32,154 nt of DNA from Acidobacteriota bacterium (lineage in GTDB: Bacteria; Acidobacteriota; Terriglobia; UBA7540): NCBI GenBank assembly GCA_003225365.1, contig QHZN01000124.1:1-32154 (forward strand). The letters run 5' to 3'. The position numbers and the translations under genes are program-made. Positions 15,310 to 21,552 of this stretch are shown one piece after another (position 1 is the stretch's first letter; every line of letters starts with the position of its first letter). The notes under the pieces are model-generated. The model saw nothing but the letters and a program-made list of their open reading frames with translations, was not told the origin of the DNA and did no database searches.

Positions 15310-17454
15310 ATGATTGGACAGACGATCTCCCATTACCACATTCTTGAGAAGCTCGGCGCGGGTGGGATGGGGGAAGTTTACAAGGCAGAAGACACCCGAC
15401 TCCACCGATTTGTCGCCCTCAAGTTCTTGCCGGAGGCGATGGCGCGCGATCCCCAGGCGCTTGAACGCTTTCGACGAGAGGCCCAGGCTGCTTCGGCGCT
15501 GAATCATCCGAACATCTGTACGATCCACGACATTGACGAGTTCGAAGGCCGGTCATTTATCGCCATGGAGTTGCTCGAAGGGCAAACGCTCAGGGAGCGG
15601 TTGGCTGTAGCGGGCGTCTATGACGCCCGACACGCCGGTCATAGACCGGCGCTACAGCTCGACACCCTCCTCGACCTGGCCATTCAAATCGCCGAAGCGC
15701 TCGACGCCGCGCACACTAAGGGCATCGTCCATCGCGACATCAAGCCTGCGAACATTTTTATCACCACGCGCGGTCAACTGAAGATTTTGGATTTCGGTTT
15801 GGCGAAGTTGACGGCCGTAGGGGCGCAAGCCCTTGCGCCCCTACCCTTGGGCGGGGTAGGGGCGATTTATGAATCGCCCCTACTCGATAGACCCACGGCG
15901 ACGATCGTGCCGGAGTACCTAACTTCGCCCGGCACGACGATGGGCACCGTCGCCTACATGTCCCCGGAGCAGGCGCGCGGAGAAAAACTTGACGCGCGCA
16001 CCGACCTGTTCAGTTTCGGCGTGGTGCTCTATGAGATGGCAACAGGCGTCTTGCCGTTCCAGGGCAACTCGTCGGCGGCCATCTTCGGCGCAATTCTCCA
16101 CGAGTCCCCGGCTTCGCCGCTCTCGCTCAATCCGCGATGCCCGGCGAAGCTCGATGAGATCATCTCGAAGGCGCTCGAAAAAGACCGAGACTTGCGCTGC
16201 CAGACCGCCGCCGAACTGCGCGCCGACCTGAAACGCCTGAAGCGCGACACAACCTCGGGCCGCTCTGTAGCGGCAGGAGCCAGTTCGGCGCCGTTGCCCG
16301 TCCCGCTTTGCGGGACGGCCGCGACAACCGAGGTCACAAAAGGTAGGGGCGATTCACGAATCGCCCCTACGCCGCGCCGCACCAGCCGCCGCAGTCTCTG
16401 GCTGGCCTTGGCGGGCGGCCTTGTTATCGTGAGGGCAATGTTAGGTTACCTTCTGACTCGGCCCTTGCCGCCGCCCAAAGTTTCCGGCTACGTGCAAATC
16501 ACGCACGACAGCCGGCCGAAGATACTCGTGGGGACCGACGGGGCGCGGCTTTTCCTCAACGAAAACCCATCCAGCGGTGCGATCATACATCAGGTATCCA
16601 GCACTGGCGGCGAAGTCGCACATATTCCTGCGCCTTCCCCTAGTATGTCCCTCCTCGCCGTGTCGCCCGATGGGGCTAACCTCCTCGTCGCAGGTGTCCC
16701 GGATCCGCAACTAGAAGGACCGCTGTGGAGTCTCCCCGTTCTTGGTGGCCCGCCGCGACGGCTCGCGAGTGTTGCAGGTCGCGACGCGGCTTGGTCGCCC
16801 GATGGCCAGACGCTCGTTTACGCCAACGCCCACGATTTATTCCTGGCCAAAGCTGACGGGACGGAATCCCGCAAGCTGCTTTCTGCTCCCAATGTCGTCC
16901 TTTCGCCAGCCTGGTCGCCGGACGGGAAGGTAGTTCGCTTCAGCGTGCAAGGTGGGAGTGGGCTGACGAGCACGGGCAGTTCTCTTTGGGAAGTGTCACC
17001 CGACGGCACGAACCCTCACCGGTTGCTTCCCGGTTGGCACACTCCCCCCGATGAATGTTGCGGCAAATGGACCTCGGATGGCGATTACTTCGTCTTCCAG
17101 TCGAAAGGAAACATCTGGGCGCTGGCCGAGGGAAAACTGCTGCGAAAACCGAGCGCGCAGCCGGTGCAATTAACCTCCGGGCCGATGCGCTTCTCGTCGC
17201 CTTTGCCCAGCAAGGACGGGAAAAAACTTTTTGTAGTCGGATACCTGGCCCGAGGAGAGTTGGTGCGCTACGACGAAAAGTCCGGCGAGTTCCTCCCGTT
17301 TCTTTCCGGAATTTCAGCGGATCGACCAGCCCGCAGAGGCGTATCTGGTCTCGCCCGACGGCGGAAGTCCGCCAGAACTGCTCCCGGAAGGCAATCTCTC
17401 CAAATGGGACCCCAACTGGTCACCGGATGGAAAAAAGATCGTATTCGGCCCTGA
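15310..17454 (+). CDS. Pkn-type Ser/Thr kinase with TolB/WD40-like sensor half, frameshifted
   Basis: A 714-residue ORF. The kinase domain (about 8-310) has the glycine loop [16 protein letters not shown] (Lys38), HRDIKPAN (Asp143), DFG (161-163) and [11 protein letters not shown] transmembrane helix (about 361-381) leads to an exported beta-propeller with TolB-like SPDG repeats ([33 protein letters not shown]). The core catalytic residues are intact. Three stretches are encoded by palindromic repeats and look foreign to the family: residues about 99-117 inside the N-lobe/helix D region, about 170-191 in the activation loop, and about 330-354 before the membrane. After residue about 670 the frame leaves the family sequence and stops at 17454; the true continuation is in another frame (17321-17896). 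Confidence 0.88.
15604..15658. repeat. 55-bp palindromic three-arm element inside the kinase gene
   Basis: Outer 9-bp stem GCTGTAGCG/CGCTACAGC (15604-15612, 15650-15658) enclosing two 6-bp arms, GGCGTC-TAT-GACGCC and CCGGTC-ATA-GACCGG. It is translated in frame as about 18 residues ([16 protein letters not shown]) between helix D and helix E of the kinase. TGTAGCG...CGCTACA elements are, from memory, dispersed repeats in acidobacterial and related genomes. Confidence 0.75.
15817..15883. repeat. Two tandem GTAGGGGCG palindromes in the kinase activation loop
   Basis: First copy: a 13-bp stem GTAGGGGCGCAAG/CTTGCGCCCCTAC with a 2-nt spacer (15817-15844). Second copy: a 12-bp stem GTAGGGGCGATT/AATCGCCCCTAC (15856-15883). 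Both are translated in frame immediately after DFGLAKL, so they occupy the activation segment. Confidence 0.8.
16298..16370. repeat. Two palindromes in the kinase juxtamembrane linker
   Basis: CCGTCCCGC-TTT-GCGGGACGG (16298-16318) and a third GTAGGGGCG copy with a 13-bp stem, GTAGGGGCGATTC/GAATCGCCCCTAC (16343-16370). Both are translated in frame just before the transmembrane helix, where added length is likely tolerated. Confidence 0.75.
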
Positions 17455-17896
17455 CAACAGCGACACGCAGTCGGTGGTTCGCATCCTCGACCTGGCGACA
17501 AAAAAGATTTCCGACGTGCCAGGCTCCAAAGGCCTCTTTTCTCCGCGCTGGTCGCCCGATGGACGCTACCTCGTCGCCATGCCTGATAACGAAGAGGGCC
17601 TTGTGCTTTTTGACTTCGCGACCGAGGAGTGGACCGAATTGGCCAGGAAAAATGCGGGTTGGCCGAATTGGTCGAAAGACGGGCAATACGTTTACTTTCT
17701 CGGTTGGCCCGACGATCCCTCCATCATGCGGGTGCGGATTCGCGACCGGAAGCTCGAGCGAGTAGCGGACTTGAAAAACTTTCGGCAAACGGGCTATTGG
17801 GGCTCCTGGTTGGGTCTGGCCCCGGACGATTCTACTCTCCTGCTCCGAGACACAGGCACGCAGGAAGTCTACGCCCTCGACTGGGAGGCGCCGTAG
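17321..17896 (+). pseudogene. Out-of-frame C-terminal part of the kinase sensor domain
   Basis: In the frame at positions 2 mod 3 the DNA encodes a clear continuation of the propeller: [78 protein letters not shown] and the usual family ending APDDSTLLLRDTGTQEVYAL. It has no sensible start codon of its own, since the nearest ATG is inside a blade. Compared with family members as I remember them, about 60 residues between ISA and YLVSPDGG are missing at the junction near 17318-17327, consistent with a deletion not divisible by three. Confidence 0.75.
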
Positions 17897-17953: not shown

Positions 17954-19564
17954 ATGGCTGAAGGAAAACTTTCCGTGCTGATTCTCGCCGCGGGCAAGGC
18001 GACGCGATTCAAGAGCGAGCACTCGAAGATGCTGCACCGCCTGGCGGGGCGGCCCCTCGGCGAATACGTGCTCAGGACCGCGATGTCGCTCCACCCGACC
18101 GAGACCTGGATGGTGATCGGGCACGAAGCGGCGGAAGTCCGCAAGGCCTTCGAGCGCCCCGGGCTGGTCCTTATCGAGCAGAAGGAGCAACGCGGCACGG
18201 GACACGCGGTGATCGCGGCCCGGGACGAGCTCGCGCGCTCGGCCAGCCCGACCGTGTTGATTCTGGTGGGGGACGCGCCGCTACTCGCCCCGGAGACGCT
18301 CGAAGGCCTGGCCGCCGCCCACGCCCGCGCTCGCGCCGCCGCCACCGTGCTCACGACCGAGGTCGAAGACGCCACCGGCTACGGCCGAATCGTGCGCAAG
18401 GGGGGCCGGGTGGTGGGAATCGTGGAAGAGAAAGTGGCGACCGCGGCCGAGCGCCACATCCGCGAAATCAACTCCGGCATTCTTTGCTTTGAGCGCAAAA
18501 AACTCCTGGCCCACCTCGACGCCCTCTCCGACGACAACGCGCAGAAGGAATTCCTGCTGACGGATTTGGTAGGAATCCTCACCCGCGAGCATGAGAAAGT
18601 GGTGGCCTACCCAGTGGTGCTCGGCCAGACGCGCGTGGGCCGGGCCTGCGTGCTCCGGCCTTACTCGACCATCACCGACTCGATCCTCGGCGACCGCGTC
18701 ACGGTGCGGCCTTGCTCGGTCATTTCGGGGTCCGAAGTCGCTTCCGATGTCTTCGTCGGCCCGTTCGCGCATTTACGCGACGGCGCGGTGATCGAGCAAA
18801 ACGCCCGCATCGGCAATTTCGTCGAAGTCAAGAAGTCGCGCGTGGGGCGCGGCTCCAAGGCCTCGCACCTGACTTATCTCGGCGACGCGACCCTCGGCGC
18901 AAACGTCAACATCGGCGCGGGCACCGTCACCTGCAACTACGACGGCGAGAAGAAGAATCCGACGACCATCGAAGAGGGCACGTTCATCGGCAGCGGGACG
19001 ATGCTGGTGGCGCCGGTGCGCGTCGGCCGCGGCGCCTACGTCGGCGCCGGCTCGACTATCACCGACGATGTCCCGCCCGAATCGCTCGCCCTCGGCCGCG
19101 CCGTCCAGATCAACAAAGAAGGCTGGGTTGCGCAGCATAAGAAATCGCCTGCCCCCCGACAGGCAGTTCCCGCCCCGGCACACACCTATCTGGCCGAATC
19201 ATCCGCTAAATCCACGCTCAAGCGGCGCGATGTGGGCGAGGTAACCATCCTCGACCTGGGCGGGCGGCTCACCATAGGCCGGCCCGTGGACGATCTCGGG
19301 CGTCTGGTGCGCGAAACTCTTGCGGAGGGGCGCCGGCACATCCTCCTTGACCTCAAGGGCCTCGTTTACATTGACAGTTCCGGTGTGGGCGGCTTTATGG
19401 CCGGCGCCAGCGCGGTTCGCGCCGCAGGGGGGGAGCTGCGAATAAGCGCCGTCCCCTCTAAGATCCTTCGCCTGATGGAAGTTTCAAACCTCGACCGCGT
19501 CTTCAAAATATTCCAAAGCGAGGAAGCCGCCCTCAAGGGATTCGGAGGTCCCTCTACCTCTTGA
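17954..19564 (+). CDS. glmU: GlmU-like bifunctional enzyme fused to a STAS domain
   Basis: A 536-residue fusion. Residues 1-220 form the uridyltransferase domain (LAAGKATRF, GTGHAV, GDAPLL, GYGRIVR, EEKVAT, EINSGI) that makes UDP-GlcNAc. Residues about 224-395 form the left-handed beta-helix acetyltransferase domain (FVEVKKSRVGRGSKASHL, GDATLGANVNIGAG, TCNYDG). After a Pro/Ala linker (395-425) comes a STAS domain (about 426-530): EVTILDLGGRLTIGR, then DLKGLVYIDSSGVGG with Ser475/476 at the anti-sigma-antagonist phosphorylation site. No start codon or stop separates the parts. The GlmU part is about 60 residues short: the segment with the conserved G-V-N-N-R motif, whose Asn binds Mg2+ in E. 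coli GlmU, is absent after VVAYPV. Uridyltransferase activity is therefore doubtful. Confidence 0.85.
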   Translation: MAEGKLSVLILAAGKATRFKSEHSKMLHRLAGRPLGEYVLRTAMSLHPTETWMVIGHEAAEVRKAFERPGLVLIEQKEQRGTGHAVIAARDELARSASPTVLILVGDAPLLAPETLEGLAAAHARARAAATVLTTEVEDATGYGRIVRKGGRVVGIVEEKVATAAERHIREINSGILCFERKKLLAHLDALSDDNAQKEFLLTDLVGILTREHEKVVAYPVVLGQTRVGRACVLRPYSTITDSILGDRVTVRPCSVISGSEVASDVFVGPFAHLRDGAVIEQNARIGNFVEVKKSRVGRGSKASHLTYLGDATLGANVNIGAGTVTCNYDGEKKNPTTIEEGTFIGSGTMLVAPVRVGRGAYVGAGSTITDDVPPESLALGRAVQINKEGWVAQHKKSPAPRQAVPAPAHTYLAESSAKSTLKRRDVGEVTILDLGGRLTIGRPVDDLGRLVRETLAEGRRHILLDLKGLVYIDSSGVGGFMAGASAVRAAGGELRISAVPSKILRLMEVSNLDRVFKIFQSEEAALKGFGGPSTS

Positions 19565-19920: not shown

Positions 19921-20799
19921 ATGGCCATTGATCAGATATCGGAGAAAGACAGCCAGAGATCGGACTCAGGGGGGACGCGTCGCGACGTGGGCATAATCAT
20001 CGCTTTCGTCGTGATGGCCCTGCTCGCCATCAGTGAAATCCATACTTTGAACAAGGTGGGTTCGATGCAGGAATCCATGAAAGCAGAGGAAACGCAATTA
20101 CGCGGTGAACTCACCACTCAAGTCAATGACCGCTTGACCGCGATGGAGACCTCGAACGCCCAAGCCATCGAGGCGATGAAGAAGGACGTGGAGGTCGTGG
20201 GCAAGCGGACCGGCACCACTCAGGTCGTCTTGCGGCGCGAAAAGGCCAAGCTCGCCCAGCTTGAAGACCTTGCAAACAAGCAGGCCGACGAGCTGAAACA
20301 GGAGATCTCCGCCAAGGCCGATGAGAAGGAAGTGGGCGCGCTCACCCAGGACGTCTCCTCGACGCGCTCGGACCTCGATAGCACCAAGAAGACGCTCGAC
20401 GCCACGCGCAGCGACCTCGGCATGGCCCGCAGCGAATTCGGCACGCTCATTGCCCGCAACCACGATCAAATCGAAGAGCTGCGGAAACTCGGGGAACGCG
20501 ACTACTTCGAGTTCTCGCTCACTCGCAACAAGATCCAGAAGGTTGCCGGGATTGGCCTGACGCTCAAAGGCACGAACGTCAAACACCACCAGTACAACCT
20601 GATCCTGAACGCCGACGACATGAATATCCTGAAGAAAAACCGCACGGTCAACGAGCCGATTTTCTTTTACACTGCCGGCTCAAAAAGGCCTTTTGAGTTG
20701 ACCGTCAATAATGTACAATCGGGTCAGGCGAAGGGGTACATCAGCACCCCAAAGGGTGCAACGAGCGAAGTCGCTTCGCGCGGGGAGGGCGTCCGCTAA
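19921..20799 (+). CDS. Membrane-anchored coiled-coil protein
   Basis: A 292-residue protein; AGGAGG is 7 nt before the ATG. It has a short cytoplasmic head (1-20), one transmembrane helix (DVGIIIAFVVMALLAISEI, about 22-40), and a long coiled coil (about 45-200) with heptad-like repeats such as LAQLEDLANKQADELKQEI and LDSTKKTLDATRSDLGMA. A compact C-terminal beta-rich domain (about 203-280) contains YFEFSLTRNKIQKVAGIGL and IFFYTAGSKRPFELTVNNV. I recognise it as a conserved acidobacterial hypothetical but cannot name a function. It is preceded by the structured leader and followed by a good terminator, so it is probably monocistronic. Confidence 0.8.
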   Translation: MAIDQISEKDSQRSDSGGTRRDVGIIIAFVVMALLAISEIHTLNKVGSMQESMKAEETQLRGELTTQVNDRLTAMETSNAQAIEAMKKDVEVVGKRTGTTQVVLRREKAKLAQLEDLANKQADELKQEISAKADEKEVGALTQDVSSTRSDLDSTKKTLDATRSDLGMARSEFGTLIARNHDQIEELRKLGERDYFEFSLTRNKIQKVAGIGLTLKGTNVKHHQYNLILNADDMNILKKNRTVNEPIFFYTAGSKRPFELTVNNVQSGQAKGYISTPKGATSEVASRGEGVR

Positions 20800-20931: not shown

Positions 20932-21552
20932 ATGGTCAAGCGCGTTTTGTTGTTCACACTTCTCGCGGCGTTGGCGGCGTTCCCCGCCGGGGCCGAGCAG
21001 CTTAACTTGCCCGCCGGTTCAGCTCTCCATTGTCGCCTCACCCAGGCGATCAGCACCAAACTCAATTTCCAGGGCGACGCTTACACCGCCACCGTCACCG
21101 AACCGGTGGTCGTGAACGGCCACGAAGTCATTCCCTTCGGCTCTACCGTTCAGGGACGGATCGCTTGGATGCTGCGCCCCGGGCGTATCAAGGGCGCGGG
21201 CGCGATGCAGTTGGCGGCGGATAAGATTACTTTTCCGGACGGTCGGAGCTTTCCCCTTGCCGCCACATTGATGACGACTTATGGCGCGGAGGGCGCGAAG
21301 TTGAACGGGACGGAGGGCGCGATTTACGGCCCCACCTCGCGCCTGAAGGATTTACAGGAAGTCGGCATCGGGATGGGCGGCGGCGGGTTCCTGGGGACGC
21401 TGTTCGGCGGGTTCCACGGGGCCGTCATCGGAGGGGCAATCGGCGGCGGGGTGGCCCTGGCGGATACGCTGCGCAAGCGCGGTCCCGATCTGACCCTTCC
21501 GACGGGCACCGAGCTCAACTACCAGTTGACGCGCGAGCTGGCAATCCAGTAA
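20932..21552 (+). CDS. Secreted hypothetical protein
   Basis: A 206-residue protein with a classical signal peptide (MVKRVLLFTLLAALAAFPAGAEQ, cleavage after AGA). GGAGGTG is 8 nt before the ATG. The mature part is beta-rich (ALHCRLTQAISTKLNFQGD, EVIPFGSTVQGRIAWML, MQLAADKITFPDGRSFPL). A glycine-rich hydrophobic segment (GGGGFLGTLFGGFHGAVIG, about 149-180) may insert in or associate with the envelope. The C-terminus TLPTGTELNYQLTREL echoes the N-terminal LPAGSALHCRLTQA, so the two ends look like an internal duplication. Function unknown; probably periplasmic or outer membrane. Confidence 0.75.
   Translation: MVKRVLLFTLLAALAAFPAGAEQLNLPAGSALHCRLTQAISTKLNFQGDAYTATVTEPVVVNGHEVIPFGSTVQGRIAWMLRPGRIKGAGAMQLAADKITFPDGRSFPLAATLMTTYGAEGAKLNGTEGAIYGPTSRLKDLQEVGIGMGGGGFLGTLFGGFHGAVIGGAIGGGVALADTLRKRGPDLTLPTGTELNYQLTRELAIQ

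Follow-up and report, generated by a model that had tools for sequence, protein, structure and literature searches.

UDP-GlcNAc made by GlmU, the essential bifunctional GlcNAc-1-P uridyltransferase/GlcN-1-P acetyltransferase, is a precursor of both peptidoglycan and lipopolysaccharide, and GVNDR is a catalytic motif of this enzyme. Canonical RsbV and SpoIIAA act by capturing a kinase, some STAS domains bind a lipid or a nucleotide, and the known targets of partner switches are sigma factors and a few enzymes controlled in trans. Diguanylate cyclases were found under the control of STAS proteins (PMC8457831), and STAS control was also described for polysaccharide-dependent biofilm (PMC10120452). 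In HsbA-HsbD, BgrV-BgrR and SiaC-SiaD (PMC8457831), as well as in SypA-SypE (PMC10120452), it is the phosphorylation state of a STAS or STAS-like domain that controls a target other than a sigma factor. For mycobacterial GlmU, the acetyltransferase activity is modulated by PknB phosphorylation (Parikh et al. 2009, as cited in PMC4619583).

Here, we describe a locus where GlmU and a STAS domain form one polypeptide. It lies within the window, by which we mean the whole analysed stretch of 32,154 nucleotides (contig QHZN01000124.1 of assembly GCA_003225365.1). Both catalytic domains of GlmU are recognisable in the fused protein, which differs from GlmU in its C-terminal STAS domain; in the window copy, about 62 codons, GVNDR among them, are also lost. 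The fused STAS domain resembles SpoIIAA and RsbV in fold, length and the Asp-Ser phospho-motif; unlike them, it is tethered to an enzyme, has no linked kinase gene and carries a diverged kinase-facing helix. In HsbA-HsbD, BgrV-BgrR, SiaC-SiaD and SypA-SypE STAS is a protein of its own, whereas here it belongs covalently to its presumed target, the enzyme GlmU. Mycobacterial GlmU/PknB offers a parallel in the Ser/Thr phosphorylation of GlmU, but in that case GlmU itself is the substrate of a Hanks kinase, while here phosphorylation would be directed at the added STAS domain.

Results

A Single Open Reading Frame Encodes GlmU and a Complete STAS Domain

The open reading frame at positions 17954..19564 of the forward strand runs without a stop through 536 codons and joins GlmU through a short linker to a complete STAS domain (Table 1). 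Residues 4-397 matched TIGR01173 with 457.3 bits (whole-protein HMM; cut-off 366.85), and residues 428-526 matched PF01740 with 49.5 bits (cut-off 22.6). The STAS part also passed the cut-off of TIGR00377, the anti-sigma factor antagonist model (54.2 versus 53.45 bits); for the fused copies of two other genomes this score was 62.0 (G004) and 42.9, which is below the cut-off (G009). The DSSG motif occupies residues 474-477. A preliminary description of this DNA had claimed that GlmU continues stop-free into a complete STAS domain with DSSG (Ser475/476), and both the HMM matches and the ORF analysis agree with it. Neither a stop or frameshift nor an assembly error turned out to underlie the join, and independent genomes carry the same fusion (see below). 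Overall, the frame is confirmed to encode GlmU and STAS as one genuine covalent protein, whose phosphorylation motif of the SpoIIAA/RsbV type is intact.

Table 1. Coordinates of the features of the glmU-STAS locus and of the rsbW-rsbV-like pairs.
Feature	Position	Strand	Basis
GlmU uridyltransferase (N-terminal) domain, residues 1-220, without its last segment (GVNDR)	17954..18613	+	TIGR01173 2-212/224; alignment with intact relatives
Junction of the in-frame internal deletion, ~62 codons absent	18611..18619	+	TIGR01173 gap; alignment with relatives
GlmU left-handed beta-helix acetyltransferase domain, residues 222-397, without first coils	18617..19144	+	PF00132 hexapeptide repeats; TIGR01173 277-451
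GlmU-STAS linker, differing between relatives in both length and sequence; contains an inverted repeat with 5-bp arms	19145..19216	+	
CTGCC(N8)GGCAG inverted repeat, inside the linker	19149-19166		
STAS domain, SpoIIAA/RsbV type	19217..19546	+	PF01740, TIGR00377; SpoIIAA best solved relative by sequence and fold
Ser475 codon, equivalent of the SpoIIAA Ser58 phospho-acceptor	19376..19378	+	Alignment to SpoIIAA
Ser476 codon	19379-19381	+	
Coiled-coil membrane-type protein, 292 aa, no Pfam match, located 3' of glmU in the majority of relatives examined, whether fused or unfused	19921..20799	+	Synteny
Second conserved 3' neighbour, weakly TrbI-like	20932..21552	+	Synteny
rsbW-rsbV-like pair loci	L181:2357-3189; L183:7860-9697; L184:7011-8997		

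The GlmU Part Carries an Internal Deletion

Positions ~213/224-276 of TIGR01173 are absent between residues 220 and 222 of the window protein, which gives two separate profile matches, and every aligned relative, fused or unfused, has about 62 more residues at this point. The segment lost, in frame, contains GVNDR, the linker helix and the coils with which the beta-helix starts; the Asn of GVNDR is a metal ligand, equivalent to Asn227 of E. coli. A complete uridyltransferase domain with this Asn and the linker helix is thus missing from the window copy and present in all relatives aligned, where GVNDR and the beta-helix are intact. The beta-helix domain of the window copy keeps the KK, HLTYLGD, NIGAG, CNYDG and KEGW motifs, and it is the only copy without the first coils. 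In the preliminary description, the deletion of about 62 codons had gone unnoticed. Within the genome bin of the window we found no other full GlmU; the deleted copy is the only glmU there.

The gene 5' of glmU, encoding a Ser/Thr kinase with a PD40 propeller (15310-17896; frame 15310-17454), is frameshifted: compared with its genome paralogs L213 and L215, it lacks about 60 residues near position 17305, where the frame shifts. Since two similar lesions are found in neighbouring genes, the internal deletion of glmU is likely an artefact or a local strain mixture of the contig. Two of the relatives have irregularities of their own. In G001, a genome of the same genus, an in-frame TAA lies inside the GlmU beta-helix (L009:1915-1917, contig G001:C345), and the STAS frame resumes after it; in G016, the STAS part (L020:1950-2471, contig G016:C450) is in another frame than glmU, probably owing to an indel.

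The STAS Domain Retains an Antagonist-Like Fold and Its Phospho-Serine

The STAS profile was closest to anti-sigma factor antagonists. A structure model of the STAS domain alone (pLDDT 91.5) found its best PDB match in SpoIIAA in complex with SpoIIAB (1th8/1thn, TM 0.85-0.87), with RsbV bound to RsbW close behind and the STAS domains of MlaB and SulP further off; the model of the full-length fused protein was of low confidence (pLDDT 66.6, pTM 0.41), and we draw no claim on domain placement from it. Ser475 aligns with Ser58 of SpoIIAA, the established phospho-site. All 13 fused STAS domains keep Asp474 and Ser475, though the domain is otherwise only ~44% identical, and the second Ser of DSSG is replaced by Ala in nine of the 13 copies.

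Purifying selection acts on the STAS part: where dS is unsaturated, its dN/dS is ~0.17-0.25, versus 0.11-0.16 for the GlmU part. Across the same eight species, mean identity is 44.5% for the fused STAS domains versus 84.7% for the standalone paralog, the fused value being lower in 28/28 pairs, and the divergence includes the kinase-facing helix after the phospho-serine. Such a difference in identity points to different constraints on the fused STAS domain, either looser ones or those of changed partners, and the divergence, helix included, speaks against a domain strictly bound by one and the same conserved kinase.

The Fusion Is Old and Restricted to One Family

Tracing fused frames by a protein search of 60 relatives combined with ORF analysis, we found the fusion in 13/39 genomes of the window's family, spanning nine genera of uncultured Acidobacteriota with conserved synteny. 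Besides the window genome, these are G004, G006, G009, G012, G017, G018, G020, G028, G032, G001 (with the TAA), G016 (with the frameshifted STAS) and G008 (a profile match at a contig edge). When 399 genomes of the class were scanned with a profile of the GlmU tail plus STAS, all 11 full-length matches fell into the window's family; outside these 11 there were only the contig-edge fragment of G008 and the frameshifted copy of G016. Among 297 genomes across the phylum, 258 of which had a GlmU-type match, the GlmU of the window was the sole fused one. The architecture had been proposed as one to search for in other genomes: it does recur, in one family only, and neither the 297 genomes of the phylum nor the 399 of the class yielded it outside that family. 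No fusion match was obtained in the phylum of a Myxococcales-labelled genome, in a scan that had no positive control, and a plasmid search returned only ordinary GlmU among the matches listed.

In seven genera of the same family (g2, g3, g5, g10, g11, g14 and g15), GlmU ends normally, without STAS; from g7 and g13 no complete glmU tail was recovered. The preliminary description had envisaged relatives with glmU and a STAS gene adjacent but separate. This was not what we observed: the synteny comparison revealed no separate STAS gene adjoining glmU in unfused relatives, and 3' of 17 unfused glmU genes there was neither a STAS gene nor a decayed remnant of one (best score 2.0 bits). Fused and unfused genomes largely share the same order, in which glmU is followed by the genes for the 292-aa and TrbI-like proteins and often by a beta-lactamase-like and a ThiF gene.

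A scan of named genomes yielded only distant GlmU matches. In the GlmU tree, the class groups with Ca. Acidiferrales and gp2 Acidobacteria, and the host is an uncultured member of the Acidobacteriota, probably of the Terriglobia. On the GlmU tree of the family, 5-6 changes are required to account for the fused label, and a topology with the fused genomes as one clade was disfavoured (AU p 0.029). A single origin of the fused STAS domains themselves was not rejected (2 changes; AU p 0.31). The simplest reading of these topologies, though not a proven one, would be one early gain of the fused STAS followed by several losses. Overall, the fusion is old and lineage-restricted.

As for how the glmU stop was lost, it had been proposed that the insertion of a small palindrome in the linker removed it. 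The CTGCC/GGCAG repeat does exist, but we reject this role for it: its arms are of 5 bp, it is unique in the genome, and it is absent both from the same-genus linker and from the other fused linkers.

Candidate Partners Are Encoded Away from glmU

No HATPase_c_2 gene linked to glmU-STAS was found among the window genes scanned or listed on the window contig, and no kinase or phosphatase gene was conserved beside glmU-STAS in the synteny comparison. The Ser/Thr kinase upstream of glmU in the window (15310-17454) was considered and rejected as the cognate kinase, its linkage not being conserved and the window copy being frameshifted: in G001, an ion-channel gene precedes glmU with no kinase match between them, and the kinase was matched at no other glmU locus.

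In the genomes checked, the gene for the standalone STAS protein nearest to the fused profile (~110-130 bits) has an RsbW/SpoIIAB-type HATPase_c_2 gene as its neighbour. We word this kinase as RsbW-like because its scores stay under the equivalog cut-offs of the RsbW and SpoIIAB models. The resulting rsbW-rsbV-like pair is present in the window's genome (contig G000:C65, locus L181) and conserved in the family, and a gene for a FliA/WhiG-type sigma factor lies near it in G006 and G010. In its own right, the pair is a candidate partner-switch module of uncultured Acidobacteriota. The search for a cognate anti-sigma kinase thus ended with an RsbW-like gene beside the standalone paralog and none beside glmU-STAS. 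The suggested tie between GlmU and a stress-signalling switch stands as plausible but unproven, the pair being encoded elsewhere and its STAS protein being the closest standalone paralog.

Discussion

In the part of the literature searched, we found no publication on a GlmU-STAS fusion and only one incidental match, which bears out the earlier impression that such a fusion is unfamiliar from described GlmU proteins. All of the parts are known, while the domain architecture itself appears to be new, as judged on this part of the literature.

We favour, with a probability of roughly 40%, a reading in which the tethered STAS domain would serve in cis as a docking and phospho-switch module acting on GlmU. 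The tethered STAS domain would be bound by a partner protein or by a serine kinase, RsbW-like or other, and the kinase would phosphorylate Ser475; the state of Ser475 would change the partner bound to the GlmU trimer, and this partner, in turn, may influence where or how strongly UDP-GlcNAc is made. Such a module would be the cis counterpart of HsbA-HsbD and BgrV-BgrR, where STAS proteins control enzymes in trans. It is consistent with the occurrence of the fusion in 13/39 family genomes and in no other genome sampled, the antagonist-like profile and fold, the Asp-Ser pair kept in 13/13 copies, the low dN/dS and the presence of the RsbW-like pair in these genomes; reported STAS control of diguanylate cyclases (PMC8457831) and of polysaccharide-dependent biofilm (PMC10120452), as well as the phosphorylation of mycobacterial GlmU (cited in PMC4619583), are precedents for it. 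Against it speak the far greater divergence of the fused STAS compared with the standalone paralog, the Ala in place of the second Ser in 9/13 copies, the lack of a kinase or phosphatase gene conserved beside glmU-STAS, and the seven genera whose GlmU has no STAS, which is therefore not essential.

The same divergence, the Ala after the phospho-serine, the missing linked kinase and the absence from related genera would all fit a STAS domain that has drifted out of Ser phosphorylation and merely docks or scaffolds, placing GlmU near another protein or binding a lipid or nucleotide. We regard this as somewhat unlikely, keeping in mind that Asp-Ser is invariant in 13/13 copies while most other columns vary, and that the closest folds are kinase-bound antagonists, with MlaB and SulP further away. 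If the phospho-serine and fold are kept for the capture of a kinase, as in canonical RsbV/SpoIIAA, the flow of information might run the other way: a STAS domain freed or hidden according to the substrate or UDP-GlcNAc state would capture an RsbW-like anti-sigma kinase and inform the sigma network about precursor supply. This is made imaginable by the rsbW-rsbV-like pair, which is conserved in the family and in two genomes lies close to a FliA/WhiG sigma gene. The would-be kinase-binding surface of the fused STAS diverges fast, however, and a dedicated RsbV-like partner is already encoded in the genome, so that such a metabolic reporter, with its putative conformational link from GlmU to STAS, seems rather unlikely to us.

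It is also improbable that the tail is a near-neutral read-through, tolerated without any role after an rsbV-like gene landed behind glmU and the stop was lost. The freely varying linker would suit such an accident, as would the lack of the fusion in seven of the family's genera and in every other family sampled; the fusion has, however, persisted through deep divergence in nine genera with a dN/dS well below 1, and the complete fold and the phospho-motif are kept. That an assembly chimera or a sequencing error made the join in the window genome is next to inconceivable: at least two lesions in adjacent genes, the kinase (15310-17896) and the GlmU deletion, do invite this suspicion, but the join recurs in 12 further genome bins, in the same position and with synteny shared, which rules out such an origin.

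Returning to the in-cis module, it is tempting to suppose, at somewhat less than even odds, that a committed enzyme of envelope-precursor synthesis has directly incorporated a partner-switching phospho-domain, so that a kinase/phosphatase switch would act on the UDP-GlcNAc supply without transcription, or GlmU would report to the switch. The fusion suggests, rather than shows, that cell-wall supply is wired into a stress-type switch in these bacteria. A natural covalent GlmU-STAS protein would provide a direct and testable route from signalling to envelope precursors, and the fused and unfused relatives within one family represent natural controls.
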